The notes below the pieces were generated by a model, which worked only from the letters and a program-made list of their open reading frames with translations, was not told the DNA's origin and ran no database searches. Of a DNA stretch of 64,000 nt, positions 35,158-60,840 are shown in pieces. A program made the position numbers and the translations under genes. The stretch is from the NCBI RefSeq assembly GCF_900168065.1, contig NZ_FUZZ01000006.1, positions 124,001-188,000 of the forward strand, written 5' to 3'. This stretch comes from Chitinophaga ginsengisegetis (lineage in GTDB: Bacteria; Bacteroidota; Bacteroidia; Chitinophagales; Chitinophagaceae). Numbering within the stretch: position 1 is the first letter of the stretch; each line of letters opens with the position of its first letter.

Positions 35158-35202
35158 CCTGTCCTTTCCCACGGCTGCATATTGGCGCACTTTCGCCGTG
35201 AT
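35158..35202 (+). promoter_or_regulatory. CCTGTCC-box leader 1, candidate late phage promoter/leader
   Basis: CCTGTCC at 35158-35164 follows the upstream TAA without a gap and is 45 nt from the ATG at 35203. The sequence CCTGTCCTTT-CCCACGGCT is almost identical to leader 4 at 60799. A hairpin with arms CACGGC (35170-35175) and GCCGTG (35195-35200) ends 2 nt before the start codon. It heads the receptor-binding and lysis operon. Confidence 0.6.
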
Positions 35203-38200
35203 ATGCACAACGTCTATAAACAAGTTTCCCACTTAGATAGGCCAGCAGTTCACACTGCTGGCCTATGTGAGTTTTATTTTGCCCGGCATGAAGATGTGGC
35301 TATTTGGCCGACTGTTGATCCTCAAACGGGTACTATTACCAATGGTTTACAGCTGAAAGCAGGTAAGGGATGGATGCGTTGTAAGGTCTTGGAAACTGAT
35401 CGAAGCTACCAGGAAGTTACAAAGATTGATCCTGCCGGGCCGTACTCGGAAATCACCGTGCAGGGCTTCATGCCGGGCGACAGCACCACTAATTCTCTCA
35501 CCCTCGCCGCTATGGTATTTGGTCGGTATGTACTTGTTGTGAAGGAGCGTACCGGTATCCAACGTTTAATAGGCAGCGCTGATGTTGGTGTGACATACAC
35601 AGGGAACTATGACAGCGAAGATGCGGAAGGTACACGCGGTTGTAAAATGCTTTTCTCATGGCGTACACCGATCTCACCACGGATATACTTAACCCCTGTT
35701 GACGCAGGTAGCCCCGGTCCAGGTGGACCCGGTGGCCCGCTGGTTTTAGTTAATGCCGGACCGGATCAGCTGGATTTATCATCGGCTACAAACGTCATTA
35801 ATCTTTCAGGTGTTGCGCTCTCCACCTCCGGAGATATAGTGAGCTATTTATGGGAGATCATTAGCGGCCCATCGGGTGCAGTAATAACTACTCCATCCGC
35901 CGCAGCGACCACTGTAACAGGTGTTAAACCGGGTGCATATTCTTTCCGGCTTACTGCTGTAGACACCATAGGAACCACTGCAAATGATAGTATTGATTGT
36001 AGTATTGCTATACCATCAGGCGGAGAAATTGAAGTATTCGCCGGACCAGACCAGTTTATACACGCGGGTGTTTCCAATACAAATTTCTATGCAAACCTCA
36101 CCATACCGCCAGAAGTTACAGTCCAAAGCATCACCTGGTCTGTTGTAACAGCTGGCGTTACAGGCGTAGAATTTTCCAATGTGAATGGTTTGAGTACGGG
36201 TGTTACAGGTATTCCTGTTGCTACGGTAACCGCATTACGTACCACCTTCCGATGCACGGTAATTGATAATTCCGGGCGTAGCAGTTATGACGAAATTGTT
36301 GTTAGCTCCGCGGCCCCTGCCCGTATGTATTCGTCCGGTGGTTACCTGGATAATAAATACGATCCAGCAAATTTACTGTTGCGTGTTTGGGCTTACGAAT
36401 GTGAGGGATACGATCCACTCCGGGAAGGTGGATACCCACTTATATTATTCTTCCACGGTGTAGGCGTCAATGGCGATCAGAACGGCGATGATATCAACCA
36501 GCTGCTGCTGAAAGCTGAAGGGCTGCCATACTACCTGTATAATAAGCTGTTCCCGATGAAATGTAACGTGGCATCAGCACAGTTACATACAGGATATTGG
36601 ACACTTGAAACGGTACAGAAGGTATTAACATGGGCCGCGGCAGCATGGAATGTAAATACTAACATGGTATTTGCAACTGGTCTTTCTTCTGGTGGTGCAG
36701 GTACAAACGCGATTATCCTTGCCAACAATACCTTGTTAGCTGGTGGTATCGCATCTAATACCACGTTTAACGATGTAGCATTGCCAGGTAATGGGGATAT
36801 CGTTAAAAATGTTCCACTGCTGTACATCCACAGCTGGAACGATACCCGTGTTCCACCGGCTTCTGAATACAGTACGCTTGACGATTTGAACAGCATCCTT
36901 GCCGCAGATCCGCTGGGCATATATCCACCGTTAATCCTGATGAATTGGGCAAGTGAGCATGATGGTGGTACATGGAATGATATGTTATACGATAAACGGT
37001 GGGCGCCATTTGATTTTGAGGAAGATTTTTTTCTTTTCCACACCAAAGATCTGGTAGAAACGGCTGGCAATTACACCAGTCGCGCCGAACGGTTGAAAAC
37101 ATTCTATGATTACAGCAGAGCTTTGCTAATCGTTAACAAACTTTCTGCGGGCGCTCCTAAAACTGCTTTATTGGCCCGTTTAACTGCTGTCAAAGATGCA
37201 ATGACTACTTCGGTAGGGCATCGCATGTTTATGCTGAATTTGGGCAGCCCTTCCGTTTTTAATCAGTACAAAATTAATAACGTCGTTTCTACAGCGGCAG
37301 GAACAACGGTAAATAACCTGGCTGATATTGACAATACATCCAGCGGAATTGGTTTTACTGTGGTAAGTAATGCAGCTGGCCCAGGTGTTGCTGGTTTGAA
37401 GCATTTCTATATGGGCATGGGCGATGATATGTTTAACAGCTCATTTATGTACAACGAAGCTAACCCCGCACAATGGAAATTTACCGGACTGAATCCTGCA
37501 CAGCATTATGATGTTAGTCTGTACCACAGCAATGTGTCAAAGCAGATGTTTCAGAGCAACAACAAATCCGGCTCGCGTAGTCTGGTAAATGGTAGTATGG
37601 CGCAAAGTAAGTATGAGTCTTACAATACCATGTTTACCACAGATCATTACAATGTGAAGCCAACTGCGGGCGGTGAAATAGTGCTGGATCTTTCCGCGTT
37701 GGATAACTACCAGTTCAACGCCAATCATATCTACCAGGGTAATACCGTAGCAATAATGTTGCGGGAAAAGACAGCTGTCGCGCCACCTCGCAGCAACTTT
37801 GACAAGTACAGTTTCGCAGCCAGCAACGCCGCCGCTGATCCCGACTTCGCTACCATGTTTGGTAACCCGTCGGCCGCTGTATTGCGGGTGGCTGATCCTA
37901 TAACCGGGCGCACTATCAGCACGGTGTCGCCTTCATTGTGGGCCAATTTTGGGAGCGCATCAGGCAATGATCATGAAGCTCCAGTAGGCGCTTTTGCAGG
38001 CGTATTGCCAGCAACAGTGGCTGAATCTGCCATGCTTAACTACAATCAGAATTTCAACCGGGATGCTGAAAATTTCAATTTCATCTGTGAAGGCACCCCC
38101 GGTATGGGATATCAGGAAGGTCTATATATAATAACGATTTATTGTTCTACCAGTGCTGATTTTTCACCCACTCGCGTAGTGTGTAAAATGGGTAGTAGCA

Positions 38201-38367
38201 ATGGTTTGGAGGATAATACAATCGTTACAAAAAATAATATGATTAATCGTCTCCAATACAAGGGATACCTAAAGGATGGAGAAACCATTCGCGGCGGTAT
38301 CTATATGCCCAACAACGTTTGGGGAGTGGCATTTTTAAACGCAATCATCGTAGAAAAAGTAGGATAA
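35203..38367 (+). CDS. Phage receptor-binding/tail-spike-like protein with esterase (alpha/beta-hydrolase) domain
   Basis: 1054 residues from ATG 35203 (a TTG at 35182 is in frame but lies inside the leader hairpin). An N-terminal adaptor domain (about 1-165) leads through a collagen-like hinge GSPGPGGPGGP to one or two PKD/Ig-like domains (about 183-360). Then comes an alpha/beta-hydrolase of the PHB-depolymerase/feruloyl-esterase type: oxyanion strand LILFFHGVG, nucleophile elbow GLSSGGAG (about 493-500), acid D in WNDTRVPP (about 546) and H in SEHDGGTW (about 585). A beta-rich C-terminus may trimerise. It likely recognises and de-esterifies a host surface glycan (inference). Confidence 0.65.
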   Translation: MHNVYKQVSHLDRPAVHTAGLCEFYFARHEDVAIWPTVDPQTGTITNGLQLKAGKGWMRCKVLETDRSYQEVTKIDPAGPYSEITVQGFMPGDSTTNSLTLAAMVFGRYVLVVKERTGIQRLIGSADVGVTYTGNYDSEDAEGTRGCKMLFSWRTPISPRIYLTPVDAGSPGPGGPGGPLVLVNAGPDQLDLSSATNVINLSGVALSTSGDIVSYLWEIISGPSGAVITTPSAAATTVTGVKPGAYSFRLTAVDTIGTTANDSIDCSIAIPSGGEIEVFAGPDQFIHAGVSNTNFYANLTIPPEVTVQSITWSVVTAGVTGVEFSNVNGLSTGVTGIPVATVTALRTTFRCTVIDNSGRSSYDEIVVSSAAPARMYSSGGYLDNKYDPANLLLRVWAYECEGYDPLREGGYPLILFFHGVGVNGDQNGDDINQLLLKAEGLPYYLYNKLFPMKCNVASAQLHTGYWTLETVQKVLTWAAAAWNVNTNMVFATGLSSGGAGTNAIILANNTLLAGGIASNTTFNDVALPGNGDIVKNVPLLYIHSWNDTRVPPASEYSTLDDLNSILAADPLGIYPPLILMNWASEHDGGTWNDMLYDKRWAPFDFEEDFFLFHTKDLVETAGNYTSRAERLKTFYDYSRALLIVNKLSAGAPKTALLARLTAVKDAMTTSVGHRMFMLNLGSPSVFNQYKINNVVSTAAGTTVNNLADIDNTSSGIGFTVVSNAAGPGVAGLKHFYMGMGDDMFNSSFMYNEANPAQWKFTGLNPAQHYDVSLYHSNVSKQMFQSNNKSGSRSLVNGSMAQSKYESYNTMFTTDHYNVKPTAGGEIVLDLSALDNYQFNANHIYQGNTVAIMLREKTAVAPPRSNFDKYSFAASNAAADPDFATMFGNPSAAVLRVADPITGRTISTVSPSLWANFGSASGNDHEAPVGAFAGVLPATVAESAMLNYNQNFNRDAENFNFICEGTPGMGYQEGLYIITIYCSTSADFSPTRVVCKMGSSNGLEDNTIVTKNNMINRLQYKGYLKDGETIRGGIYMPNNVWGVAFLNAIIVEKVG

Positions 38368-38672
38368 TGTTTACACCCTTTTTAGAAGCCAGTAACACTT
38401 TAGAATCATTCCTCCCGGACCTGGGAGAAAAATTAACGACGGTCGTCAGCCTTGCCTATTTCCTATATTATTTCATGAAGGAACTGAAACAAGTGAGAGA
38501 GTCACAGGAGAAACAGCGACAGGATTACGATGCCCGGTGGCAAGCGATGTTTGAGCGTGTCGCAGAAATGGATAGGAAAAGCCAGGAGGCGCTCAATAAT
38601 GTGAGCAATAGTAATGAACGCCTCGCCGACGCGGTTGAGGGATTATCAAACCAATTAAAAATGAAGCCATGA
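38367..38672 (+). CDS. Holin-like small membrane protein
   Basis: 101 residues from an ATG that overlaps the previous stop (TAATG); the frame is open further upstream but that part lies inside the previous gene. One membrane helix (LTTVVSLAYFLYYFMKEL, about 22-39) is followed by a highly charged coiled coil (KQVRESQEKQRQDYDARWQA). It lies directly before the spanin-like gene and near the amidase, so a holin or holin-accessory role is likely by context. Sequence alone does not prove it. Confidence 0.5.
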   Translation: MFTPFLEASNTLESFLPDLGEKLTTVVSLAYFLYYFMKELKQVRESQEKQRQDYDARWQAMFERVAEMDRKSQEALNNVSNSNERLADAVEGLSNQLKMKP

Positions 38673-39346
38673 AATTACAAACGGAACGGATTGTTATTTT
38701 CTTCTTACTTATAGTCGTCACCGGACTTTCTTTGCGCTCCTGCTTTCGTAAAGAGAAGGAAAATATTATACTGAAAGAAGCTGTACAGATAAAGGAAGAT
38801 AGTACTTCCTTTTGGAAGGATTCCCTGGGAAGAATCCACGCACAAAAAAAGCTGATAGAGGCAGATATGAGCAGCCTACGGGCGGTTTATCGTGACCGGA
38901 TTGATAGTATTACTTCTGCTCTGCAAATTAAGAGCAATGATCTACAGTCGGCGTTAACCGCTCGCACCACCAGCCAGGGAACAGTTAAACCAACTATTGA
39001 TACTATCCGTAAGGATTCCATTGCGCTGTACAAGTTTCATTTTTCCGATCAGTGGCTTACACTGGATGGGCTTATAGCGCCTTCCCCTACTATAACCTAC
39101 CGGTTTACTGATTCGCTGGTTTTAACCACCTATAGAAAACGGCGTAACCTTTTGCGCAGTGACATTTATGTAGATGGTTACTCCCTTAATCCCAACGTGC
39201 GTTTGCAGAATATTACCGGTATAAAGGTAGCCTCTGCACCTGTCGGGCGGTTGGGAATCGGGCCATATTTGGGTTATGGATTTACTGGTAATGGTATTGG
39301 GCCTTCCTTCGGAATCTCGATCCAGTATCGACTTTTGAATTTCTGA
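38669..39346 (+). CDS. Spanin-like protein: N-terminal anchor, coiled coil, C-terminal beta segment
   Basis: 225 residues. Membrane anchor ERIVIFFLLIVVTGLSL at the N-terminus, then a periplasmic coiled coil (about 25-95, IEADMSSLRAVYRDRIDSIT), a beta-rich segment, and a C-terminal stretch LGIGPYLGYGFTGNGIGPSF ending in a final phenylalanine after alternating strands. A protein that can span from the inner membrane towards the outer membrane next to holin and amidase genes fits a spanin role. Overlaps the gene before by 4 nt. Family not identified with certainty; structural alternatives exist. Confidence 0.5.
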   Translation: MKLQTERIVIFFLLIVVTGLSLRSCFRKEKENIILKEAVQIKEDSTSFWKDSLGRIHAQKKLIEADMSSLRAVYRDRIDSITSALQIKSNDLQSALTARTTSQGTVKPTIDTIRKDSIALYKFHFSDQWLTLDGLIAPSPTITYRFTDSLVLTTYRKRRNLLRSDIYVDGYSLNPNVRLQNITGIKVASAPVGRLGIGPYLGYGFTGNGIGPSFGISIQYRLLNF

Positions 39347-39384
39347 CTTATTATAATTTGTAATTTTTACAACTGTTTTAAAGT

Positions 39385-39804
39385 ATGAGAGAAATAAAAA
39401 ATATTGTCCTGCATTGTACTGCTACACAACCAACGGCTACGGTGGAGTCAATTTTGCGATTTTGGAGAACCAGTCGAAAATGGCGAGATCCTGGATACCA
39501 TTACATAATTGAGTTCAATGGAAATGTTCGTAACCTGCAACCTGAAGAAAAACCCTCAAATGGCGTAGCTGGCCATAATTTGGATAGTATTCACGTGTCG
39601 TATATTGGCGGTATTGACCGTGAAGGAAAACCAGAGGATACCCGCTCCAGTGAACAGCGTATTGCAATGAAAGGTTTGGTACAAAAACTACATCAGAGAT
39701 ATCCCACGGCTATCATTCTTGGACACCGGGACTTTCCTAATGTACCGAAAGCATGTCCTTCATTTGATGTTCGTTCCTGGCTGAAAGAGGAAAATGTACT
39801 TTAA
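39385..39804 (+). CDS. N-acetylmuramoyl-L-alanine amidase (phage endolysin, Amidase_2 type)
   Basis: 139 residues, the full length of a T7-lysozyme-like amidase. Zinc ligands fit H10 (LHCTAT), H114 (LGHRDF) and C124 (ACPSFD), and K122 two residues before the cysteine matches the catalytic lysine of T7 lysozyme; tyrosines at 38 and 40 (GYHYII) supply the remaining active-site residue. It cuts the amide bond between muramic acid and the peptide stem. No signal peptide, so release needs a holin, here presumably the product at 38367. Confidence 0.9.
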   Translation: MREIKNIVLHCTATQPTATVESILRFWRTSRKWRDPGYHYIIEFNGNVRNLQPEEKPSNGVAGHNLDSIHVSYIGGIDREGKPEDTRSSEQRIAMKGLVQKLHQRYPTAIILGHRDFPNVPKACPSFDVRSWLKEENVL

Positions 39805-39866
39805 TGTTCTCTGTACAAGTGGTTGATTAATTGATTAAATTGGAGGTATTAGTTAAAATTCGGATT

Positions 39867-40076
39867 ATGGAAGCATTTTCTGTCACAGTTTTAGGTAGCA
39901 CGTACATGGTGTATCCGCGGGAATGTGGAGCCTATATTCAGTTTGTCATTCCAGTTAACGGGCAAGACATCATTTTCCAGGCAAATCAGTCTGGTGAAAT
40001 AGTACCGTTAGAGGAAGCTGAACCAATAGAGACGTTGGCTCAGATCGGAAAGGCCATAGAATCATATTTTCTTTGA
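39867..40076 (+). CDS. Small phage protein, unknown
   Basis: 69 residues from ATG 39867 (an upstream TTG at 39831 is possible). Acidic, with a beta-sheet-like pattern (FSVTVLGSTYMVYPRECGAY) and a terminal helix ETLAQIGKAIESYFL. It ends just inside the -33 element of the SOS-type promoter. No family recognised. Confidence 0.45.
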   Translation: MEAFSVTVLGSTYMVYPRECGAYIQFVIPVNGQDIIFQANQSGEIVPLEEAEPIETLAQIGKAIESYFL

Positions 40077-40101
40077 AATACTAAAAAAATTAGTATTTTT
40101 G
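40072..40101 (+). promoter_or_regulatory. Bacteroidota-type promoter with palindromic operator between its boxes
   Basis: TTTG (40072-40075), an 18-bp spacer, and TATTTTTG (40094-40101) match the Bacteroidota -33 TTTG and -7 TAnnTTTG consensus exactly. A palindrome ATACTAA-N5-TTAGTAT (40078-40096) fills the spacer and overlaps the -7 box, so a bound repressor would block the polymerase. A second identical 17-bp core lies at 40177-40193. Because umuD and umuC follow, a LexA-type repressor is the likely ligand (inference). Confidence 0.7.
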
Positions 40102-40114
40102 TCAGAGACATATA

Positions 40115-40144
40115 ATGAATACCCTTAGAAATTGTTCTGCTTAA
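40115..40144 (+). CDS. Possible 9-residue leader peptide
   Basis: An ATG about 14 nt after the -7 box opens the frame MNTLRNCSA, which stops at 40142-40144 between the two halves of the terminator stem. It overlaps the 5' arm of that stem, so translating ribosomes would compete with hairpin formation, as in attenuation leaders. There is no codon bias towards one amino acid, and no other evidence for translation. Confidence 0.3.
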   Translation: MNTLRNCSA

Positions 40145-40165
40145 AGCATTTCTAGGGGTTTTTTT
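40122..40165 (+). terminator. Rho-independent terminator inside the umuDC leader
   Basis: CCCTTAGAAAT (40122-40132) pairs with ATTTCTAGGGG (40148-40158) over 11 bp with one G-U pair, followed by seven Ts. It lies only about 10-15 nt after the predicted transcription start of the upstream promoter and before umuD. It should end that transcript as a short RNA unless read through. Confidence 0.75.
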
Positions 40166-40175
40166 GTGTCTTATA

Positions 40176-40194
40176 TTACTAAAAAAATTAGTAT
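40176..40194. promoter_or_regulatory. Second copy of the umuDC palindromic operator
   Basis: The 17-bp core TACTAAAAAAATTAGTA (40177-40193) is identical to that at 40079-40095, 98 bp upstream. It lies 15 bp before the chosen umuD start. No good -7 TAnnTTTG element accompanies this copy, so it may act as an auxiliary operator or block transcription read through the terminator. Confidence 0.6.
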
Positions 40195-40208
40195 TTAAAC
40201 AGCGATAT

Positions 40209-40625
40209 ATGATAGCAATGAAGTTGAACCCGGAAGTTTTGTTGATGCCGTTTTTTAATACGACTATACCCGCAGGCTTCCCCAGCCCGGCTCAGGACTA
40301 CAGCGAGGAAGAAATTGATCTAAGTAAGATCTTGCAACCCAATCCTACCACCACTTTCATAATACGAGTAAAGGGAAACAGCATGGAACAGGCCAATATG
40401 CCCGATGGCTGCCTGGTGGTTGTAGATCGTTCACTCAAAGCCCAAAGTGGAAGTATCGTTGTGGCGATATTGGATGGGGAGTTTACGATTAAGCGTTTGG
40501 TTAAAGCTGGCCGCAATTGGGTACTGCATCCGGAAAATCCTTTTTACAAACCCATAGTTATTACAGAAGATGCAGATTTCCAGGTGTGGGGCGTCGTTAC
40601 TAACATCGTAATTTCAGCAAAATGA
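40209..40625 (+). CDS. umuD: UmuD-type SOS mutagenesis protein, LexA-like self-cleaving subunit
   Basis: 138 residues from ATG 40209 (ATG 40218 is an alternative). The Ala22-Gly23 bond in IPAGFPSPA matches the RecA-stimulated cleavage site of UmuD. S58 in VKGNSMEQA and K95 in FTIKRLVK form the serine-lysine dyad of the S24 peptidase family. No DNA-binding domain precedes it, which separates UmuD from LexA or phage repressors. After cleavage it would complex with UmuC, encoded with a 4-nt overlap, to form a mutagenic translesion polymerase. Expression is likely controlled by the two palindromes upstream. Confidence 0.9.
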   Translation: MIAMKLNPEVLLMPFFNTTIPAGFPSPAQDYSEEEIDLSKILQPNPTTTFIIRVKGNSMEQANMPDGCLVVVDRSLKAQSGSIVVAILDGEFTIKRLVKAGRNWVLHPENPFYKPIVITEDADFQVWGVVTNIVISAK

Positions 40626-41884
40626 TAGCACTTGTTGATTGCAATAATTTTTACGCCTCCTGCGAAAGACTGTTTCAGCCTGCTTTGCGAGGCAAGCCAA
40701 TAGTCGTGCTGTCTAACAATGATGGGTGTGTTATTGCCCGCAACGACGAAGCAAAGGCGATTGGAATAAAGATGGGAGCACCAGCATTTCTAATGCAGGA
40801 TCAAATTTCCCGTCACGGTGTTTTTGTGTTTTCTAGCAATTACACATTGTACGGCTCCCTTTCTAACCGCGTCATGGCAGTATTGCAGGCAAATTGTGAA
40901 AAAACTGAACAGTACAGCATAGACGAAGCCTTCCTTTATCTCGGCGACCTAAAACATATTGATCTTGAAAAATATGCAGGTGAATTGCGGTCAAAGGTTA
41001 ACGATGTTGGGATTCCGGTAACAATCGGCATCGCCACAAGCAAAACCCTGGCAAAGATGGCGAATCGTTTTGCAAAGAAAACTAAGAAGGACATTGGTGT
41101 TCATATTTTGGACAGTAGCGATAAGGTTAATGAAGTTCTGCGCTTCACTGAAGTCGCAGATATTTGGGGAGTAGGGAAACAGTATGCCGCCGTGTTAAAA
41201 GCTCACGGATTTAATACTGCATATGAATTATCATTGGCTCCGCAGGAATGGATCAGAAAAGAAATGTCAGTAGTTGGCCAGCGCCTATGGAACGAGCTTC
41301 ACGGCATGTCGTGTATTGAGATGGAAGAAGAGCCACCCGCGAAAAAGAATATTTGTGTCGCAAGATCATTTGGTCAATTACTTTCAGAAAAAGAGGATGT
41401 TCGAGAGGCATTAGCGAACTATGCAGCCATAGCCGCGTCTAAGCTCCGTCAACAGAATAGTTGTGTCACGGTTTTGCAGGTGTTCCTTCAAACAAATGTA
41501 TTCCGGGAGCAAGATCGACAGTACTATAGATCCGCCACTGTACAATTGCCTGTTGCAAGCAATAGTACAAAAGAAATACTACACTATTCGGGTATTGGTT
41601 TAGACCGCATTTGGCAAAATGGGTATAATTTTAAAAAGGTCGGTATTCTGCTGTTGGATCTTATCCCTGCTGATCAAGTCCAATATGGCATGTTTGACAA
41701 AATAGATCGCCCCAAAGATAATAGGTTAAGTAAGGCTATGGATTCGATCAATAGGCATTGGGGAGGTAAAGAATTAGTTAAATTTGCTGTACAAGGTTAT
41801 GATCGAAAGTGGAGATTAAGACAGGAACGGTTGTCCCCCTGTTATACAACAAAGATTTCAGATATTCTTACGATAAAAATTTAG
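40622..41884 (+). CDS. umuC: UmuC, Y-family translesion DNA polymerase
   Basis: 420 residues, full length. The catalytic acids are present: D6 in IALVDCNNFYASCERLF and the DE pair in QYSIDEAFLYLGDL near 102-103. Fingers/palm signature GKPIVVLSNNDGCVIARNDE and helix-hairpin-helix region VADIWGVGKQYAAVLKAHG follow, and the C-terminal domain is intact. With UmuD it copies past DNA lesions at low fidelity. Carriage by a prophage would help phage DNA survive damage and raise mutation rate on induction. It overlaps umuD by 4 nt and is followed by an unknown gene after 2 bp. Confidence 0.95.
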   Translation: MIALVDCNNFYASCERLFQPALRGKPIVVLSNNDGCVIARNDEAKAIGIKMGAPAFLMQDQISRHGVFVFSSNYTLYGSLSNRVMAVLQANCEKTEQYSIDEAFLYLGDLKHIDLEKYAGELRSKVNDVGIPVTIGIATSKTLAKMANRFAKKTKKDIGVHILDSSDKVNEVLRFTEVADIWGVGKQYAAVLKAHGFNTAYELSLAPQEWIRKEMSVVGQRLWNELHGMSCIEMEEEPPAKKNICVARSFGQLLSEKEDVREALANYAAIAASKLRQQNSCVTVLQVFLQTNVFREQDRQYYRSATVQLPVASNSTKEILHYSGIGLDRIWQNGYNFKKVGILLLDLIPADQVQYGMFDKIDRPKDNRLSKAMDSINRHWGGKELVKFAVQGYDRKWRLRQERLSPCYTTKISDILTIKI

Positions 41885-41886
41885 TC

Positions 41887-42378
41887 ATGCATAACCCTCT
41901 TGCGCTTTTTACCACTGAAGTTTTGAATGCGCTTCTGACACATGGCTTTACAATATTTGTAAGGCAGTCATATCCGAGAGGCAAGGATCATTTTGATTCA
42001 AACATTAAAGAAGCATTTTTGTTTACCCCATACAAAGACATCGGCGAGGCAAACCAACATTTTCAGTACATCCGTTACGATGTAAGAAAATATGTCTATC
42101 AGGTGCAACGTGTAGAGGAGTTTGAGCGATTGAAGATCGCAGCAGCGCAGCCCGAAGGGTATAAGAATTATGTTGACAAACTCGCCGCCAAGCAATGGCG
42201 TCCATCGGCTCAAATGGGAACTAAGATAGGCAACTATGTCCGCGCACATACAAAGTGGAAGGCGCGAGAAGGTTCCATATCTGTTAATTTATTTTTGCAC
42301 TATGGTGAATTGATGCTGAGGTTATCTAATGGCGCTGAGGAAATAAAAGTGAAACTAAGTGACGTGGAGCGGCTCTAA
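41887..42378 (+). CDS. Unknown protein encoded directly after umuC
   Basis: 163 residues from ATG 41887, two bases after the umuC stop, hence surely co-translated with the mutasome genes. It is mainly alpha/beta and basic, with RQSYPRGKDHFDSNIKEAFL, a YDVRKYVYQVQRVEEFERLK helix and the C-terminal LFLHYGELMLRLSNGAEEIK. No motif is recognised. Location between umuC and the SRAP gene, inside an apparently SOS-regulated block, suggests a DNA-damage or mutagenesis accessory role (inference). Confidence 0.6.
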   Translation: MHNPLALFTTEVLNALLTHGFTIFVRQSYPRGKDHFDSNIKEAFLFTPYKDIGEANQHFQYIRYDVRKYVYQVQRVEEFERLKIAAAQPEGYKNYVDKLAAKQWRPSAQMGTKIGNYVRAHTKWKAREGSISVNLFLHYGELMLRLSNGAEEIKVKLSDVERL

Positions 42379-42398
42379 ATCATAAAAAAAATCAGTAT
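42379..42398. promoter_or_regulatory. Degenerate third copy of the SOS-type palindrome
   Basis: ATCATAAAAAAAATCAGTAT resembles the umuDC palindrome (ATACTAA-N5-TTAGTAT) with several changes, mostly in the left arm. It lies 23 bp before the SRAP gene, another SOS-associated function. This makes it a plausible weaker operator for the same repressor, but the match is imperfect. Confidence 0.4.
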
Positions 42399-42420
42399 AT
42401 TATACTTCAATTTATGAGCT

Positions 42421-43173
42421 ATGTGTTATGATATTTCATTTGCTTCAGATATTGAGAGTATCCACGATATTCTACCAGCAATTCAAATTCAGGGTGAGCT
42501 ACGATTTGACCCTACGTTTCATAAGTTAGGAATGTCATTCCCAACATGGCCGATAGTGGTAAATACAAACAATCGTTTGGAACTTCATCCATTTGTTTGG
42601 GGACCGATTCCTAAAATGTTAAACACTCCTGATAAAGTAAAGAAGCAGCGACAAATGTTTTTAAATGCCCGCAGTGAAAAAATTTTGGAACCAAAAACTA
42701 TGTGGACAGCTATCAGGCACCAGCGTTGCCTGGTACCAGTGACGGGGTTCTATGAATATAGAGAGATACCAGGACAAAAAAATAAGCAGGCATATTTTAT
42801 ACGGGTAAAAGGACAGAAGATTTTCTTTATCGCTGGTTTATGGACCTTATCCAATAGTTGGGACATAGAAAAACCAGAGAAGATAACAACCTTCACAATT
42901 GTAACCAGAGAGGCGAACTCAGTTATGAAGCAGATTCACAATGGTGGGAATAATGCTGGTCGAATGCCGATGATGCTTACAAATGAGCTGGCAGAAATGT
43001 GGGTAAAGCCGGAATTAAATGATGATCAGATTAAAGATATATTAAGCTTTTCTATGCCATCCATTGATCTTGAATATTGGCCAGTCAACTCGGTCCGGAA
43101 AGCACATCCCGATGATGAAAGTGTTATTGAGCACGTCGATGAAATTGATTTGCCACCGATTATTCTTCAATGA
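42421..43173 (+). CDS. SOS response-associated peptidase (SRAP/HMCES/YedK family)
   Basis: 250 residues. The start is fixed by the MCYD beginning, because Cys2 becomes the N-terminal nucleophile that crosslinks to abasic sites in single-stranded DNA. Other conserved residues are present: E112 in VTGFYEYRE and H173 in KQIHNGG before AGRMPMML. The spacing between that histidine and RMP is slightly larger than usual. The protein shields abasic sites as a covalent DNA-protein adduct. It joins umuD and umuC to give this prophage a three-gene DNA-damage block. Confidence 0.9.
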   Translation: MCYDISFASDIESIHDILPAIQIQGELRFDPTFHKLGMSFPTWPIVVNTNNRLELHPFVWGPIPKMLNTPDKVKKQRQMFLNARSEKILEPKTMWTAIRHQRCLVPVTGFYEYREIPGQKNKQAYFIRVKGQKIFFIAGLWTLSNSWDIEKPEKITTFTIVTREANSVMKQIHNGGNNAGRMPMMLTNELAEMWVKPELNDDQIKDILSFSMPSIDLEYWPVNSVRKAHPDDESVIEHVDEIDLPPIILQ

Positions 43174-43330: not shown

Positions 43331-43395
43331 ATTGAACTACTTAACATTTATAAAGGGGGAACAAGCAACAAACTCACAATCAAAACCCTTTTATA

Positions 43396-44083: not shown

Positions 44084-44101
44084 ATATAAAAGGAAACAAG
44101 C

Positions 44102-45604: not shown

Positions 45605-45646
45605 CCTGTCCTTTTTCTCTTAATGCTCTCGCGGCACTTTTGTGCC
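45605..45646 (+). promoter_or_regulatory. CCTGTCC-box leader 2, head of the capsid/tail operon
   Basis: CCTGTCC at 45605-45611, 42 nt before the ATG at 45647. A hairpin GGCAC (45633-45637) / GTGCC (45642-45646) with a TTTT loop abuts the start codon. The last 12 bases (TTTTGTGCCATG) closely match leader 3 (TTTTGTGTCATG). Confidence 0.6.
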
Positions 45647-46915
45647 ATGACGAGCAATTTTCATATTCTATCTGCCATACTGAACGGTCCGTGGTTAATT
45701 ACTCCGGACTACGCGCAGGCCATGTTACCGTGGGTTGCCAGTTTATATTCCGGCTCCGGATCTGTTGCCGCTGTTCCCCGTTCTGGGTATTCCAGTGAGC
45801 GTCCTTTTATCGTGGCACCGCGTACCGGTAAGCGGTACGAATGGAATGATACACCACCGGAAGGATCTGTTGCAGTTATTCCCATCACCGGGCCGATCAC
45901 CAAATATAACGGTGGTTGTGGTGAACCCGGATCTATCCAGCGGCAATCACTTGTCGCAGAAGTTGATGCACGCTCCGAGATAGTGGGCGCGCTCTATCTG
46001 TACGATACGCCCGGTGGTCAGGTAAGCGGTACTTCATCCCTGGCAAATGCAATCCGCAATGCAAAAAAAAGGTCAGTAGCATACGTTGACGACGGCATCG
46101 CAGCCAGTGCTGGTATGTGGTTTTTGTCGGCATCAGCAGAGGCATACGTTAGCCAAAAAACTGATCAGGTAGGCAGTATTGGCGCCTACACTTCCCTTGT
46201 AAATTTTTCCGGATACTTTGAGAAATTGGGCATTAAGATCCAGGAGATCTATGCTCCACAGTCTACTGATAAAAACGGTAGTTATCGCGCTGCCATTGAA
46301 GGTAATGAGGATCTTATTAAACAGGATCTAAGCGTTGTTGTTGACGGTTTCATCAATTTCGTAGCCGACCGTTCTCCCCGTGCCCGTGCTTCCATCGACA
46401 AATGGAGTACTGGTAAAATGTTCCACGCTGCCGATGCCAAAAAGTACGGCCTGCATGAAGGCGTCCTACCTATGCGGGGCGCCATTCAACGTGTAGTTGC
46501 CCTCAATAAAAACTCCACTCCAACAATTTCATCAAACACAAAACATACAACTATGGCATTTGAACAAACACTTTCCGCCGCCCAGGCTGAGGAATTTGAA
46601 GTGGTGGAGGGGGGATTCCTTGCCACCGAAGATCAGCTTAACAATGTGGAAGCACACATCACCGGGCTACAATCCCAATTATCAGCAAGCCAGGAAACAG
46701 TGACAGCACAAGGCCAGCAGATAGAGCAGCTCCAGACAGCTGCAACAGCTTCTGAGTCTACGATCCAGCGTTTACAGACTGAACTTAAAAACAAGGGTAA
46801 AAGAGATGCTGTCACTTTTACTAACCCTGAAGTGGGAGTAGAGGATGATGCAGAAGTGAAGGAGGATCGCTATGCAGACCTCCGCAAAGCCGCTTTTCCT
46901 AACTGGCAAGGATAA
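45647..46915 (+). CDS. Phage head maturation protease (S49/SppA-like) fused to a scaffold-like tail
   Basis: 422 residues from ATG 45647, chosen because it lies at the fixed distance from the CCTGTCC box; the frame is open 24 bases further. The protease domain shows VAVIPITGPITKYNGG, ALYLYDTPGGQVSG and GIAASAGMWFLSASA with nucleophile S154, followed by QVGSIGAYTSLVNF. After about residue 290 comes a coiled-coil region (VEAHITGLQSQLSASQETVT) ending near the C-terminus, as in protease-scaffold fusions of HK97-type phages. It would assemble with and then cleave the capsid shell. It is followed by the major capsid gene. Confidence 0.85.
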   Translation: MTSNFHILSAILNGPWLITPDYAQAMLPWVASLYSGSGSVAAVPRSGYSSERPFIVAPRTGKRYEWNDTPPEGSVAVIPITGPITKYNGGCGEPGSIQRQSLVAEVDARSEIVGALYLYDTPGGQVSGTSSLANAIRNAKKRSVAYVDDGIAASAGMWFLSASAEAYVSQKTDQVGSIGAYTSLVNFSGYFEKLGIKIQEIYAPQSTDKNGSYRAAIEGNEDLIKQDLSVVVDGFINFVADRSPRARASIDKWSTGKMFHAADAKKYGLHEGVLPMRGAIQRVVALNKNSTPTISSNTKHTTMAFEQTLSAAQAEEFEVVEGGFLATEDQLNNVEAHITGLQSQLSASQETVTAQGQQIEQLQTAATASESTIQRLQTELKNKGKRDAVTFTNPEVGVEDDAEVKEDRYADLRKAAFPNWQG

Positions 46916-52800: not shown

Positions 52801-53101
52801 GAGTTTTACACCAAAGCCGGTTAATTTTGGTGCGGTTACCTCCACTATATCCAACTTGCGGACATATGCCACTGGTGGGGTGTTCGCAAATGACACCAGG
52901 CAGAAACCCAGGCATAACGATGCCAACGGGGTAAGTACTGATCCACAGCTACAAATCTTGCTAACACAGAACATGCAGGTACTATTGCAACTTAAAGATC
53001 AGTTAGCAAATGGTATTACTGCTATTGCTTCCGTCAATCAGATAAATAACGAACAACAGCGGCTGGAAACAATCCGTAGCAATTCGACATTTCAGCCTTA
53101 G
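49841..53101 (+). CDS. Tail tape measure protein
   Basis: 1086 residues, by far the longest tail gene. Mostly alpha-helical with long coiled coils (LTKMRDRARDLTAEISRIQA near the start; EEQSELKT-type and KKQEYKRQLDAKIISQEDYA stretches later). Hydrophobic membrane-like segments lie at about 138-160 (FMTTFLASFAGNVVATFF) and about 870-895 (GPIIGQILAAAAAAMGAAQI). This is the standard composition of siphovirus tape measures, which set tail length and help DNA entry. Its TAG stop is followed at once by the next CCTGTCC box. Confidence 0.9.
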   Translation: MASSQSRRYTIYIDNTEAQRELTKMRDRARDLTAEISRIQAAGGNATRQIQQLAATNQNIHALETSISQGLTRSFRDLQNEVRRFENLLHRATDPAQIEQLSNQLNTARQNLLRYEAEVLNVERAQRQLNAQNRTMGQFMTTFLASFAGNVVATFFTRAADAVMEFIGQIGPAISEYQKFLAVLKVGLGNDLAAKAAISQLTNFSSNTPLELNELTESFIKLVNRGFKPTNEELTKLGDLAYSQGKSLDQLVEALLDAQSGEYERLKEFGIRASKANGEVTLSFKGQTVTVKENEKAVRDVILAYGAMEGVAGTMIGVSKTMDGVNSNMSDTIKQLATNVGRLLAPAWLSAKSALTSFIASLVELTKPRGLDEISIEMVELNRTIESLESGMVPLLNRYDELTAKATKLGGETKLSKKEQSELKTIIDSITQQMPSATTEFDNYGNAIKISTDRVREHIAAEKERLKIINKDRIEATKKSIAENEKELASMQERIDQINKTGTFKTTSLSVGIGGTASVSEYKATEEEVNKVIARFKELRGQQMGLKRQLELDTGEYLKEQTKLIDGDKKVAESAVTTDKKTDESRKRAAKQLEEYVNKVTAQKLSGYEREIFESETRYKELYAQLVMYGLDTKKLDETQLQERSLIYQKHFADLASQYGRSRDLLSDTPQARIKRGQSDTTARLMADIDKFAKDNARRNQDDVAAAELAAMNVRGRKQYEARKALLAAQRKQELDNINLTTNERAKIEADYQQKDWDATTDYYAQKVEQYTQYLSSVLSVYEQWSSVQKMREDAELAADKELNDKKKQEYKRQLDAKIISQEDYARKVEALDNAQQAKERALKKKQFERDKVANITKAIMGTAQAVVQMLTAGPIIGQILAAAAAAMGAAQIGIIAAQKAPEYGKGGKLTGPTHDSPSNGLPVYNPETGHPVAYVEGGEGILKRSAMSDGTQYTATGTISQIASMFNSMHGGVNWERGASVKPSWMSFTPKPVNFGAVTSTISNLRTYATGGVFANDTRQKPRHNDANGVSTDPQLQILLTQNMQVLLQLKDQLANGITAIASVNQINNEQQRLETIRSNSTFQP

Positions 53102-53143
53102 CCTGTCCTTTAATGCCCGGTATTTACCAGGCATTTTTGTGTC
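53102..53143 (+). promoter_or_regulatory. CCTGTCC-box leader 3, head of the portal/tail operon
   Basis: CCTGTCC at 53102-53108 abuts the tape-measure stop and lies 42 nt before ATG 53144. Arms AATGCC (53112-53117) and GGCATT (53130-53135) form a stem extended by CGG/CCA with a TATTTA loop, followed by TTT, so the same hairpin may end the upstream operon. The final TTTTTGTGTCATG resembles leader 2. Confidence 0.6.
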
Positions 53144-53473
53144 ATGACAGCAGAAAGCATCACCATAAAACAAATGCTGGAGGATATGGGAAAAGGCCGC
53201 CCATTTTCGCTTACGTATGTTACAGCAGATACGAAGAAAGGCACTGGCGGAAAATTAGTGAAAATCGCCAGTGCCATTCTTTCCGGTTACAACCTTGCCG
53301 ACGGTTCGCGGGTTACCGCCAGCGTTATGAACAATGCCAGTCTTACAGGCAAGTCCTCTAAAAGACCCAACCACAGCGCCCATTTTACCCGCAACATTTT
53401 ATTAAAAGACAGCACCCTGCGTAAGGTGCATATTGATCTGGTAACAGAATACAACGGAAAAAAAGTTTTATGA
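53144..53473 (+). CDS. Small phage protein before portal, unknown
   Basis: 109 residues, basic; start fixed by its 42-nt distance from the CCTGTCC box. Segments FSLTYVTADTKKGTGGKLVK and SAHFTRNILLKDSTLRKVHI suggest a small beta fold that may bind nucleic acid or virion partners. No family recognised. Overlaps the portal gene by 4 nt. Confidence 0.55.
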   Translation: MTAESITIKQMLEDMGKGRPFSLTYVTADTKKGTGGKLVKIASAILSGYNLADGSRVTASVMNNASLTGKSSKRPNHSAHFTRNILLKDSTLRKVHIDLVTEYNGKKVL

Positions 53474-54816: not shown

Positions 54817-54819
54817 CTG

Positions 54820-55797: not shown

Positions 55798-55801
55798 ACA
55801 T

Positions 55802-56599: not shown

Positions 56600-56611
56600 A
56601 TTTCAGTCATT

Positions 56612-57124
56612 ATGGTGAAAGCGTGGAGAGAGTATAACCAGCAGCTGGCAGAGCGCCATTATCTGGTATTACATAATGGGTTAAGCCAGCAACAGTCAGG
56701 GCTGCGCCGAAAATCATTTTTCCGGGATAACAACCAGGAGGAAGCAGAAGGCGCACAGCAGTATAATTTACACAGCCCTTGTGTAGTACTTTCCGGGCTG
56801 CGCGGAAAACTGATCGGGCAAGATCTGGCATTTCGTAAAAGCATCAAGACGGCGGTGTATTTCCTGTCCAGCGTACGGGAAACTTATGATGATCTGGAAG
56901 ATACGCTGGAATTAACGGGCGGCGTGATGATGGATTTTTTATCTAAATATCAGGAGGACTTTCTTTCCACCGGAACATGCGGGCCATTTAAAGATTTTGA
57001 TATAGGCAAAGCTGTGTGGGATCAGGCAGGGCCGATGTTGAATAATTTTCACGGCTGGAAGGTGGAACTGGAATTTGTGGTAAGCGCCGCGGATTTAAAT
57101 TATAACCCTGTAAAATGGAAATAA
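56612..57124 (+). CDS. Phage structural-operon protein, unknown
   Basis: 170 residues, mixed fold: a helical N-terminus (VKAWREYNQQLAERHYLVLH) and a later part with ETYDDLEDTLELTGGVMMDF and GWKVELEFVVSAADLNYNP. Possibly a virion connector. No family recognised. One base separates it from the following tail gene. Confidence 0.5.
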   Translation: MVKAWREYNQQLAERHYLVLHNGLSQQQSGLRRKSFFRDNNQEEAEGAQQYNLHSPCVVLSGLRGKLIGQDLAFRKSIKTAVYFLSSVRETYDDLEDTLELTGGVMMDFLSKYQEDFLSTGTCGPFKDFDIGKAVWDQAGPMLNNFHGWKVELEFVVSAADLNYNPVKWK

Positions 57125-57125
57125 G

Positions 57126-58307
57126 ATGCTTTTGGTAACAAGCCGGCCCGGCGAAATTTGTTTTTCGCGTGATCCGATCATATATACCTTTCATACCGAC
57201 CAACCGCTAACCACGGAAGGTTTAATGATCGAAGTAGCCATTTATTTTTGTTCTGGCGCGGGGTCTGATTTTACAAAAATCTACACGCAGCCCCTTTATC
57301 CCGATGCCTCTGGGAACATGTCATTGTATGCAGGGGATATCATCAACAGCCTGCTTACGTACTCGCTTCCATCCCTTGCGGCGGAGGCCATTACCGATAT
57401 GGACAGTCAGGTAGGGCGTTTTTATGTGGACTACCGGGAAATTACCACCGCGACGCCTGCTCCGGCATGGTTAAGCGATAATGGTAATATTCGCAATGTT
57501 ATAAAGGGAGGAACTACATACGAACGCTGGAGCGGCAGTAATTTTTTTTCTGGCTATCTGACGACTACAAAAGCGTTTTTAACCTGGCAGGTGTCCGGAC
57601 GGCTTTGTGGTTCAGGTGAGCGGATGTACCTGTATTACCTCCACATGGTAGCTGCTACCAGTGGCATCAGCCTAAAGGTACGTGTAGTTTATACTGATGC
57701 CACGGAAACAACTTCACAGCCTTTAGTTTTCCCTATTGGGAAAAAATATCATGTGTACCAGATACCAACAGGAGTGGAGCAACTGGCATTAACAGCACCT
57801 ACAGGGAAAACAATCTATTATTACGAAGTATCTGTAATGGCTGGAAGTACCATACTTGCGGCGCCTTTTCGTTATGAAATAGATAATCGACCATCTTATA
57901 ATCCCATTCAGTTAAACTATATCAATAGTCTGGGCGGAATGGATAGTATCCGGCTGTTGGGCGTAAGTGAACCAGGACTATCACGGGAGGCAGTCATAAC
58001 GGAAAGAGTCACAAATGGTACTAATAACAGCCAGGTGATGCCCCGACTGCTTAACAGCAGTATCAACCTAACGGGTATCTGGACCGGAAATAGTGGTTTT
58101 GTAAGTAGAAGAGAGTATGATGGTTACCTCGACATTTTTGCTTCGCGTGGTATCTATAGGGTGTTATCAGGTAGATGGTTACCGCTGGTTTTGACTTCCG
58201 GGAAAATCCCGTTACCGAAATCCAGTGATGACCTATTCTCACTAACCATAGAATTTCAAACAGGATTTAATAATATCAGCTGGACGCCGGACGGCCAAAA
58301 TTTTTAG
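57126..58307 (+). CDS. Phage tail protein, distal-tail-like (tentative)
   Basis: 393 residues, rich in beta strands and tyrosine. Starts LLVTSRPGEICFSRDPIIYT and continues with strand-turn repeats to FSLTIEFQTGFNNISWTPDG. A jelly-roll-like tail-tip role is suggested by composition and by position before the large 811-residue tail protein, 1 bp downstream. The sequence also resembles large structural proteins with Ig-like domains. No enzymatic motif is visible. Confidence 0.5.
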   Translation: MLLVTSRPGEICFSRDPIIYTFHTDQPLTTEGLMIEVAIYFCSGAGSDFTKIYTQPLYPDASGNMSLYAGDIINSLLTYSLPSLAAEAITDMDSQVGRFYVDYREITTATPAPAWLSDNGNIRNVIKGGTTYERWSGSNFFSGYLTTTKAFLTWQVSGRLCGSGERMYLYYLHMVAATSGISLKVRVVYTDATETTSQPLVFPIGKKYHVYQIPTGVEQLALTAPTGKTIYYYEVSVMAGSTILAAPFRYEIDNRPSYNPIQLNYINSLGGMDSIRLLGVSEPGLSREAVITERVTNGTNNSQVMPRLLNSSINLTGIWTGNSGFVSRREYDGYLDIFASRGIYRVLSGRWLPLVLTSGKIPLPKSSDDLFSLTIEFQTGFNNISWTPDGQNF

Positions 58308-58308
58308 T

Positions 58309-60744
58309 ATGATAGGAATCTTCGTTAATGGACGTTTTTTGGATATTCCACCAGGTGCTACTACGAGCATGGAACGGAATACTCCACTGCTTTTAGGTGA
58401 CACCGTATTAGGAGAACTCATGCTACCGCTAACAATTCCTCCTACAGAGAACAATATAATTGCCCTGGGGTTTATTACAGAGCCAGGAAAGGAAAAGACG
58501 GCGACCGATGTAAAGGTAGAAGCACAATATTATGAACATGGAATTTTCATGTATCGTGGCACCTTAGTTGTTGAGAACACGCAGACCAATCTTATCAGCA
58601 CGGAACGCGGAAATATCAGCATTTATTTTCTATTATCGATATCTGATTTTTATACGAGAGCTGCGAAAGTAAGATTATCGGACCTGAACCTGGGCGGTCT
58701 TAGGCAGATAAGCAATTTTGTTGATCATGTTAAGGCCACGTGGAGTGGTACGCAGGCGGGTTTTGATTATGTGTTTGCACCAGTATCCAACGATAATTTT
58801 TTACCGCCTAATCCTGATCAGGAATTTCCTATATATGATCCGTTATACAACTGCATGAACCCTATACAGGTCATAGATGGTACGTTGACGCTGAGTTTTT
58901 TTTCATGGTCCGAGCTGCGGCTTGTACCCTTTATGTATTTTAAATTTCTGCTGGTAAAATGCTTTAGTCATTTTGGCTTTACAATTTCCGGTGAAATATT
59001 AGATGACCCGGATTTTAACAAGATCATATTGCTTAACTATCAGTCCATTTATTGGGGCGTCTGGAATACCGATAACACGCAGGCCGTGGTGTTTGATCCT
59101 GTGCAATTCGATCTGAAAAACCATGTACCTAAAGACTATTCGGTAACACGTTTTTTGATAGCCGCAGCCAATTTCTTTGGATGGTCATACCAGTTTGATG
59201 TTATCCGGAAGCACTGCACGCTTGTGCCTTTGGCGAGGTTGCTGGCTCAATCTTCAAGAAAGGATTTTACAAACAAGTGTGGTCCTGTATTGAAATCAGA
59301 ATTTGCAAAGCAGCAAAAGGTGTATGGTCTTAAACTTAATTTTGATGGCGCCGATACTACCATAAGCAAGCCGGATTTGTCAAAGATCGAACGTAGGCCG
59401 GATGTACCAACTGTTGCTGATCTGGAACCTGCATCCCTTTTTAATAATGGCAAAGCTGCTCTGGTTAGCACTTTGAACTGGTGGTACATTTGCCGATATA
59501 ATGAAGATGATAAGGTTTACCGGTGGGAATTTTTAGGAGATAACATTTACGATTATGAGCCGTCCGGTGTTACTGAAAGTATAGAAACCGCAATTACACC
59601 CGTGAGCCAACGATTAAAGGATTGGCGGCGAATGCCGGACGGCTCATACATACAGGCACTACTCCCCACCGTTAACCAAACCGGTAACTGGTATGGAAAA
59701 ACTGGAGAGTACAGCACCTGGGAGATGCGAATACTTTTTTATCATGGAATGCAACCAGATGTTGCCGCATCAGATAAACTGTATCCTTTTGCCAGCAGCC
59801 ACAACTACAACAGCAGAGGCCAAAAAGTAGGCAACTATAGCTTATCTCCAAACGCTTCCGATGGTGTTATCAGCAGATTTTGGGAGCGCTGGTTAAAAAC
59901 GTTAGGATCGTTTGAAGTGGTTACATTCGTACTCAATTTGTCGATGGTGGAATACATGAGCCTAAGCTGGACTGATATAATTCTCATTCGCAGTGTTATT
60001 TATTTGCCAACGCAATTAAATACTGGTAGCCCTTTCCTCACATACAGTGGAGATGATGCTGGCGCCGTAACGGTAAAAGCGCTCCGGGTAACAACAGAAA
60101 AACCCGCAGTTTGGCAATGTGTGGCCGCAGTCGAAAATGTTACAGTAAACTATGCTAGTGGCGGAATTGCAAATGTGAACTTTGTGGAGTCAACACCAGG
60201 CGCAAATAGCTGGCAGTATTCTATTGATGGCGCGGCGCCAATAACTATTTATAGCCATCCATTCATCATCGCGGCGCCACCAGGTAACCATACCATTGTA
60301 ATAACGCCATTATGTGGCATTTATCCTAATGCAAGTGGTGCTGCATCCGCAAGCTATTTAATACCGGTTAAAAAGGTAACGATAACTTTAAGCGCAACGT
60401 TAACGGATGGAAACGCGCCGCATAACAAAATGGTACTTACAGCCGTGGCTGATCAGGCGCCAGCAGATTTTATGGAAGCATGGAGCTTTGAATTTGGCCA
60501 GTGTACGGTTAATACCAGTATAGGGGAAGAAACCTGCAGAGGCTTTATACCATATCCTGGTGGATCAACAAACATGACCTTTCCTCCCGGTACCACCAGT
60601 GTTACACAGCAATCTTCAGATGATACGCCCGGTTCCAGTTTTGGCTATATTACAACCATACGAATATGGGGGGTATCTTCACCGGTGGCACAGCTGGAGT
60701 TTGTCAAAGCACCAGGTCAAACCTGGGCATTGTCGTACAATTAA
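58309..60744 (+). CDS. Large tail-tip/baseplate protein with C-terminal Ig-like domains
   Basis: 811 residues. N-terminal part opens MIGIFVNGRFLDIPPGATTS and resembles tail-associated hub proteins of Bacteroidota phages, with NLISTERGNISIYFLLSISD and TRFLIAAANFFGWSYQFDVI. From about residue 610 a fibronectin- or Ig-like region follows (VTVNYASGGIANVNFVESTP, PPGNHTIVITPLCGIYPNAS), and another beta domain ends the protein. It probably forms the tail tip that organises adsorption. The operon ends with the terminator 24 bp downstream. Confidence 0.55.
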   Translation: MIGIFVNGRFLDIPPGATTSMERNTPLLLGDTVLGELMLPLTIPPTENNIIALGFITEPGKEKTATDVKVEAQYYEHGIFMYRGTLVVENTQTNLISTERGNISIYFLLSISDFYTRAAKVRLSDLNLGGLRQISNFVDHVKATWSGTQAGFDYVFAPVSNDNFLPPNPDQEFPIYDPLYNCMNPIQVIDGTLTLSFFSWSELRLVPFMYFKFLLVKCFSHFGFTISGEILDDPDFNKIILLNYQSIYWGVWNTDNTQAVVFDPVQFDLKNHVPKDYSVTRFLIAAANFFGWSYQFDVIRKHCTLVPLARLLAQSSRKDFTNKCGPVLKSEFAKQQKVYGLKLNFDGADTTISKPDLSKIERRPDVPTVADLEPASLFNNGKAALVSTLNWWYICRYNEDDKVYRWEFLGDNIYDYEPSGVTESIETAITPVSQRLKDWRRMPDGSYIQALLPTVNQTGNWYGKTGEYSTWEMRILFYHGMQPDVAASDKLYPFASSHNYNSRGQKVGNYSLSPNASDGVISRFWERWLKTLGSFEVVTFVLNLSMVEYMSLSWTDIILIRSVIYLPTQLNTGSPFLTYSGDDAGAVTVKALRVTTEKPAVWQCVAAVENVTVNYASGGIANVNFVESTPGANSWQYSIDGAAPITIYSHPFIIAAPPGNHTIVITPLCGIYPNASGAASASYLIPVKKVTITLSATLTDGNAPHNKMVLTAVADQAPADFMEAWSFEFGQCTVNTSIGEETCRGFIPYPGGSTNMTFPPGTTSVTQQSSDDTPGSSFGYITTIRIWGVSSPVAQLEFVKAPGQTWALSYN

Positions 60745-60768
60745 AACATATTATTTTATTTATAATTT

Positions 60769-60792
60769 AAAGCCTCGCTTTGCGGGGCTTTT
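60769..60792 (+). terminator. Terminator after the tail operon
   Basis: AAAGCCTCGC (60769-60778) and GCGGGGCTTT (60782-60791) form a 10-bp stem with one T-G pair and a 3-nt loop, followed by T. It lies directly before the fourth CCTGTCC box at 60799. Confidence 0.8.
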
Positions 60793-60798
60793 CCGTGT

Positions 60799-60840
60799 CC
60801 TGTCCTTTTCCACGGCTACGCTTTGCACCAAATTCGTAGC
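60799..60840 (+). promoter_or_regulatory. CCTGTCC-box leader 4, head of the terminase operon
   Basis: CCTGTCC at 60799-60805 is 42 nt before ATG 60841. Arms GCTACG (60815-60820) and CGTAGC (60835-60840) form a hairpin that ends exactly at the start codon. CCTGTCCTTTTCCACGGCT is nearly identical to leader 1. TACGCTTTG inside resembles a -7 TAnnTTTG element with one extra base. Confidence 0.6.

Follow-up and report, generated by a model that had tools for sequence, protein, structure and literature searches.

The late promoters of phage Mu (lys, I, P and mom) are activated by the C protein, have non-consensus −10 and −35 elements and carry the activator site just upstream of −35, as described in PMC4461284. 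Bacteroidota promoters of the sigma-ABfr type consist of a TTTG and a TAnnTTTG element; in Flavobacterium johnsoniae the latter, termed the −7 element, comprises T−12, A−11, T−8, T−7, T−6 and G−5 and lies 4–5 nucleotides (nt) from the start site (PMC6847099). Leaderless mRNAs were reported at 5.5% in Flavobacterium psychrophilum (PMC9723704) and 5′ untranslated regions shorter than 10 nt at about 3.7% in Bacteroides thetaiotaomicron (PMC7366714), while leaderless genes whose −10 signal precedes the start codon by about 10 bp were found in 1 of 37 Bacteroidetes/Chlorobi genomes (PMC3160421). Phage transcripts are described as "often leaderless" (PMC5312081), so that leaderlessness in phage transcripts is not in itself a novelty. 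Here we analyzed a 64,000-nt stretch of Chitinophaga ginsengisegetis DNA (assembly GCF_900168065.1, contig NZ_FUZZ01000006.1, positions 124,001 to 188,000; hereafter the window), in which four operons of a prophage are each headed by the box CCTGTCCTTT, that is, CCTGTCC followed by TTT, at a nearly constant distance from the start codon.

The element formed by this box and its leader constitutes a genuine class of conserved promoters serving structural-gene operons, as seen from its conservation, its spacing, the homologous operon heads behind it and its enrichment over controls. It is, in our judgment, probably the promoter from which a group of Bacteroidota siphophages transcribes its late genes, giving leaderless or nearly leaderless mRNAs upon activation by a phage factor. 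As in phage Mu, several late operons would be placed under one activator, here an inferred one, and the promoter elements are non-consensus; unlike in phage Mu, the box core TGTCCTTT overlaps −33 and stands at a set distance from the start codon, the −7 element is of the Bacteroidota type, and Mor/C was not among the Pfam matches of the 22 members of the candidate activator family A1 (E 0.1). With sigma-ABfr promoters it shares A−11, T−8, T−7, partly T−6 and G−5, and the start-site spacing, whereas T−12 and the −33 TTTG are not kept, TGTCC is added and the predicted start lies at the ATG. The leaderless −10-signal genes of PMC3160421 likewise have a core promoter at a fixed short distance from the ATG, in contrast to which a set of late phage operons here has a common upstream box. 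Among the matches listed in open-access PMC, no title or abstract dealt with this motif or with late gene control in such phages.

Box and −7-like element of the four leaders

The box lies at 35158–35167 ahead of the first late operon, at 45605–45614 ahead of the capsid operon, at 53102–53111 ahead of the portal/tail operon and at 60799–60808 ahead of the terminase operon, all on the + strand, as are all other features given below. The corresponding ATGs at 35203, 45647, 53144 and 60841 follow at distances of 45, 42, 42 and 42 nt, respectively. The positions and distances claimed for these four operon heads by an earlier note on the window were thereby confirmed from the sequence, and so was its remark that two boxes begin right after stop codons, since open reading frames (ORFs) end at 35157 and at 53101, the latter being the tape-measure gene. 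When 10-mers were scanned at offsets of 15–79, CCTGTCCTTT at 42 nt was the sole one with a single fixed offset ahead of at least three ORF-end starts in the phage region, a multiplicity of 3 being reached by 32 of 1000 random-position sets. The pattern CCTGTCCTTT-N20-NANNTTNG, which was derived from the four window sites themselves, had no match in the 7.93-Mb host genome apart from these four sites, and its reversed-pattern control gave 0. The heptamer CCTGTCC alone has 9 copies in the window versus 4.86 ± 2.54 in shuffled sequences (6 of 100 shuffles reached 9) and, being without enrichment, was dropped as a signal.

A second constant part of the leaders, overlooked in the earlier note, is NAnnTTYG at box +30 to +37, which was found in 4/4 leaders as CACTTTCG (35188–35195), CACTTTTG (45635–45642), CATTTTTG (53132–53139) and CAAATTCG (60829–60836). 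The position of the first agrees with that in a sequence logo of 58 non-redundant leaders, which were picked on box plus start codon and not on −7, and include those of the window and of Polaribacter phage Leef_1. If 4 of the 4–5 nt given between −7 element and start site (PMC6847099) are taken, +1 is predicted at box offset 42, where operons 2, 3 and 4 have the A of their ATG; the ATG of operon 1 lies 3 nt farther from its box, giving a predicted leader of 3 nt, and with +1 at offset 42 the first box would occupy −42 to −33. In the 58-leader logo, the housekeeping −7 positions A−11, T−8 and T−7 are present in 93%, 95% and 97%, and T−6 and G−5 in 50% and 57%. The housekeeping T−12 is kept in only 17% (C 48%, G 29%), in 0/4 leaders of the window and in 33% of 126 leaders selected with an IMG/VR pattern given below (counts on pattern-selected leaders hold among the matches listed), and the −33 TTTG is not kept, the TTT of the 58 leaders continuing with G in 7% and with C in 66%. 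Thus, the −7 core emerges without being selected for, and T−12 is mostly absent. The misfit to the Bacteroidota −33/−7 consensus asserted in the earlier note consequently stands for −33 and T−12 and fails for −7, where NAnnTTYG is exactly in place.

Start codons of the 58-leader set are located at offset 40 in 39 and at offsets 39–41 in 51 leaders. The nucleotide at −1 is a pyrimidine in 96% of the 126 pattern-selected leaders and in 4/4 of the window, compared with 51% among 731 further ORF starts in these stretches, which were set at the first ATG and are thus imprecise; the 58-leader set, with its varying start offsets, has C or T at offset 39 in 74%. This bias would agree with a YR (pyrimidine–purine) initiator at the ATG. 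Based on the −7 spacing and the −1 pyrimidine, we strongly predict a transcription start on the ATG or no more than a few nt away from it, yielding leaderless or nearly leaderless mRNAs. T reaches 49–58% at −46 to −43 of the 126 leaders, which we read as terminator T-runs adjoining the box.

Conservation among related phages

Using the terminase large subunit encoded at 62022–63602 (weak PHROG match, E 9e-5; homologues found) to select relatives, we detected it in 9 further genomes among 294 searched, with 35–39% identity in the best pieces. A motif-free 7-mer/fixed-offset scan returned CTGTCCT at one offset ahead of five G009 ORFs and three G066 ORFs; the other seven genomes did not yield it. 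In six of these seven, TGTCCTT-type boxes were found by searching TGTCC with a start codon 38–49 nt on; in the seventh, G055, this search gave no such box and there was no A1 homologue. Where both are present, the boxes of these relatives stand ahead of homologous head genes. In a second, overlapping terminase-selected set (39 loci, 28 without near-duplicates), TGTCCTT 40 nt ahead of the ATG was the top 7-mer/offset combination (16/28 loci), and the TGTCCTT offset histogram for the 28 loci showed 20 at 40, 6 at 39 and at most 3 at any other offset. Eight of the 40 terminase loci L261–L300, near-duplicates included (L264, L272, L274, L285, L286, L289, L290 and L294), had no TGTCCTT box 36–47 nt before a start codon in the stretch. 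The box place is taken by TGTCCCTC and CGTCC in L289 and by TTTCCTTT in L285/L286, which may be drifted boxes; at two sites of L289 (7076 and 12522), TAnnTTTG lies 4 nt before an ATG, with these weakened boxes in the usual place. Both leaders found in the divergent phage L007 (9952 and 14302) have TGTCGTTT instead of the box at the same spacing, and the box and its reader may drift together. In the nearest relative, IMGVR 2918905307, box and −7 element are identical at all four leaders.

The pattern TGTCCTTT-N21-A-NN-TTTG-N4-ATG gave at least 131 matches in at least 120 stretches of IMG/VR. Among the matches listed, 126 of the 131 ATGs start an ORF that is 50 amino acids (aa) or longer or that runs to the end of the stretch, and 115 of the 126 leaders are non-redundant. 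The permuted box gave 42 matches in 42 stretches, only 2 of which start an ORF ≥50 aa long (Fisher p 3e-31 against the listed real matches). Stretches with two matches were seen with the real pattern only (131 matches in 120 stretches listed versus 42 in 42). Genomes with two to four matches (G000, G009, G058, G199, G227 and G247) also occurred with the real pattern only. The earlier note took the constant box for a promoter or protein-binding site and named a lack of enrichment of box plus spacing in related phages as a refutation; both the terminase-selected relatives and IMG/VR show this enrichment, which supports an element of promoter type at a fixed distance. Some whole-genome matches precede host genes, including a recurrent one ahead of GlxA-like regulators. 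In six host genomes (L041, L043, L046, L048, L059 and L071), regulator genes that are GlxA-like by eye share TGTCCTTTGAGACA (TGTCCTTTAAGACA in L048) at the −33 place, with a −7 box and the ATG 4 nt on, apparently another leaderless host promoter.

The cultivated relative Leef_1 (Helgolandviridae; L248) resembles the window phage in having homologous head genes behind the box, a 40-nt distance from box to ATG at three places, and an A1 homologue, gp39. There, TGTCCTTT lies 40 nt ahead of gp05 (homologue of the window gene at 53144), of gp46 (homologue of that at 60841) and of an ATG at 1848 in frame with gp04, which is probably annotated 10 codons too short, with its true start at 1848. It differs in belonging to another host class, in some −7 boxes ending in TTGC, and in the spacings of 42, 52 and 70 of the other three of its six boxes: the box at 469 has offset 42, and those at 10520 and 30638 do not fit, their annotated starts lying 52 and 70 nt on, the latter box preceding a protease homologue. 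Leef_1 retains the box on two orthologous operons (portal and terminase) and not on the third. The main text on Leef_1 and the Helgolandviridae (PMC8776804) contains the word "promoter" 0 times.

Activation model, candidate activator and rival explanations

The element is common to several structural-gene operons of one phage, as in an activated late promoter, and, judging by gene function, the box-led operons would be late. For start site, leaderlessness, activation and activator identity, we infer the following scheme. The late promoter would consist of TGTCCTTT at −40 to −33 and (C/G)AnnTTtG at −12 to −5, and host RNA polymerase would start at or a few nt from the A of the start codon, making the late operons leaderless or nearly so. 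The housekeeping holoenzyme alone would use these sites poorly because the host −33 TTTG and T−12 are missing, and since these are not kept, the involvement of a factor from the phage is likely. This factor would be a protein produced early, most likely one of the A1 family, that would bind TGTCC, recruit or remodel the polymerase and turn on the four operons together.

The window member of A1, a 205-aa protein, is encoded by the last gene before the first box (34540–35157), which ends 3 nt ahead of its TGTCC. Homologues end 8, 17, 18, 60 and 275 nt before the box in G009, G227, G253, G066 and G058, respectively, and overlap it in G199; in all, the gene lies within 275 nt of a strict box or overlaps it in 11 of 32 rows (window phage counted twice). 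A1 was present in 34 of 40 box-bearing records, hand-picked from the 120 listed IMG/VR stretches plus L006 and L007 (the latter with TGTCGTTT), versus 1 of 28 control records, taken from the 42 permuted-box records; leaving out the records that supplied profile rows, it was present in 24/30 versus 0/27. The A1-box table for near-full-length terminase-selected records read 10, 1, 2 and 3 (p 0.06). The family is highly divergent, the window member sharing 11–26% identity with 20 of the 21 others. No PHROG matched it, and Pfam matches of the 22 members (E 0.1) were to one member each, none of weight; a PDB sequence search with the A1 profile gave a best E of 0.019. Two AlphaFold models had mean pLDDT (predicted local distance difference test) scores of 82 and 89, and neither Foldseek nor VIA matched these models to any solved structure at significance; in the viral library a single match reached E ≤0.001, a Leef_1 protein (E 2e-8). 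The beta-alpha-alpha order in the model gives the impression of an N-terminal ribbon-helix-helix. A conserved 134-aa neighbor (33826–34230) was dropped as general activator, being found in only 5 of the phages compared.

Several results weigh against a late promoter activated in this way. Single whole-genome matches of the pattern are no commoner than controls at the phylum level (6 of 395 genomes versus 5 with the reversed pattern), and the picture is weaker at the family level as well (20 of 294 versus 13). With respect to the activator step, the A1 gene lies 2.8–10.5 kb from the box in 16 of the 32 rows, and in 5 no box lies downstream of it in the stretch. Further, the terminase is present in 38 of the 40 box-bearing records, so that the co-occurrence of A1 and box is not specific and common descent explains much of it. 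That A1 is the activator, as its position in some phages, its occurrence with the box and the lack of a better candidate suggest, is therefore a tentative assignment, possible and yet doubtful. Similarly speculative is the wider notion that a large Bacteroidota phage lineage, from Chitinophagaceae prophages to marine Helgolandviridae, might use a hybrid late promoter read by a new activator family with no solved structural match together with host polymerase, with leaderless late mRNAs, box and activator drifting together, and a terminator folded into the terminase promoter spacer.

An alternative sigma factor of phage or host that reads TGTCC as a −35 element, with no separate activator, would also explain why −33 and T−12 are both off the host consensus in the 58-leader logo while the spacing is fixed; a sigma motif of F. 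psychrophilum carries TAnnTTGY in the corresponding position (PMC9723704), and TTGC stands at the −7 place in Leef_1 and some terminase leaders. We regard this as unlikely, given that A−11, T−8, T−7 and, in half of the leaders, T−6 and G−5 remain of the housekeeping type, and that no sigma-factor family was matched in the A1 family (PHROGs, Pfam) or among the scanned window ORFs (39 against PHROGs, 18 distinct ones against Pfam; ORFs shorter than 80 aa and some others were left unscanned). Ordinary housekeeping promoters with natural variation, in which the box is simply the −33 element of these phages and a phage factor is unnecessary, would be in keeping with the −7 core and spacing, which agree with the host promoter (PMC6847099), and with the TTT of the box overlapping the −33 position. 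That source, however, describes a −33 motif barely evident in F. johnsoniae, yet TGTCC is common to phages of different host classes, and T−12, nearly invariant there, is rare in the 58 leaders, which makes this explanation quite improbable.

The box and hairpins might instead be RNA elements in the 5′ leader of transcripts begun farther upstream. The four inverted repeats described in the earlier note (CACGGC/GCCGTG, GGCAC/GTGCC, AATGCC/GGCATT and GCTACG/CGTAGC) were all located, and three of them run up to the ATG or stop no more than 2 nt short of it; its remark on changing arms is right for terminase-operon leaders. There, arms of at least 6 occur in 9 of 16 leaders, where column shuffles predict 0.76 (none of 500 reached 9), with centers at −13.5 to −23.5, differing arms that keep pairing (GGCGGACA, GATGTCCGC, AGATGGCG, CGGATGT, ATGGCAA etc.) and loops varying from 0 to 14 nt, which a fixed-spacing operator would not show; of five more terminase leaders with start offset 39, outside this count, one has arms of 6. 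A weaker excess was seen in the 115 non-redundant pattern-selected leaders (12 versus 3.6 expected; 0 of 200 shuffles reached 12), which is real and confined to a minority. As a general feature the hairpin does not hold up: outside the terminase operon such arms occur in 3 of 18 leaders (a count without shuffle test), and in the nearest relative the 35158 arms are broken, the 60799 arms one pair shorter, the 45605 arms unchanged and the 53102 stem longer. The hairpin was accordingly dropped as a constant part of the element. An RNA leader is also at odds with the −7 element 4 nt before the ATG, and the dyad is equally well explained by a terminator that limits read-through out of the operon before; we consider an RNA leader highly improbable. 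Under the late-promoter reading, the hairpins lie upstream of the predicted transcript, because its start is predicted at the ATG.

Terminator-like hairpins, phage genes and possible biological meaning

Terminator-like hairpins were read at 53112–53135 (AATGCC/GGCATT, its T-run forming part of the −7 element) and, with a T-run, at 60772–60792 just 5′ of the fourth box. The terminase-leader dyad lies within the −33/−7 spacer in the window (GCTACG/CGTAGC, 60815–60840) and in L267, L276, L278, L279, L280, L288, L295 and G199. We read it mostly as a terminator of the operon before, folded into the spacer of the promoter, with an operator or a packaging site as possible alternatives.

In the window phage, a primase-like gene is followed by a series of small genes and then by the box-led sets, each of which would form one operon judging by gene order. 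Operon 1 begins with a 1054-aa protein (35203–38367) with PKD domains by family match; the receptor label given to it in the earlier note was not upheld, as a weak Peptidase_S9 match was the only addition and no named family emerged. Farther on, between this gene and the capsid operon (39385–43173), lie amidase, UmuD-like, DNA polymerase and SRAP genes, an SOS-type cargo in which we take the polymerase to be UmuC-like. Operon 2 runs from the head maturation protease (45647–46915, phrog_53 by PHROGs match), with a predicted leaderless start, through the tape measure. Operon 3 starts with a 109-aa gene (53144–53473), followed by that of a protein whose Leef_1 homologue carries a portal annotation, which upholds the portal label of the earlier note. 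Operon 4 starts with a 212-aa gene (60841–61479), followed by the terminase large subunit.

The arrangement points to an undescribed mode of switching on late phage genes. If this is true, the motif would find late operons and correct start codons from sequence alone, as for Leef_1 gp04, and a candidate activator family would be gained. Bacteroidota are a phylum without Shine-Dalgarno signals, and these phages would offer natural leaderless transcripts for studies of translation start in it.

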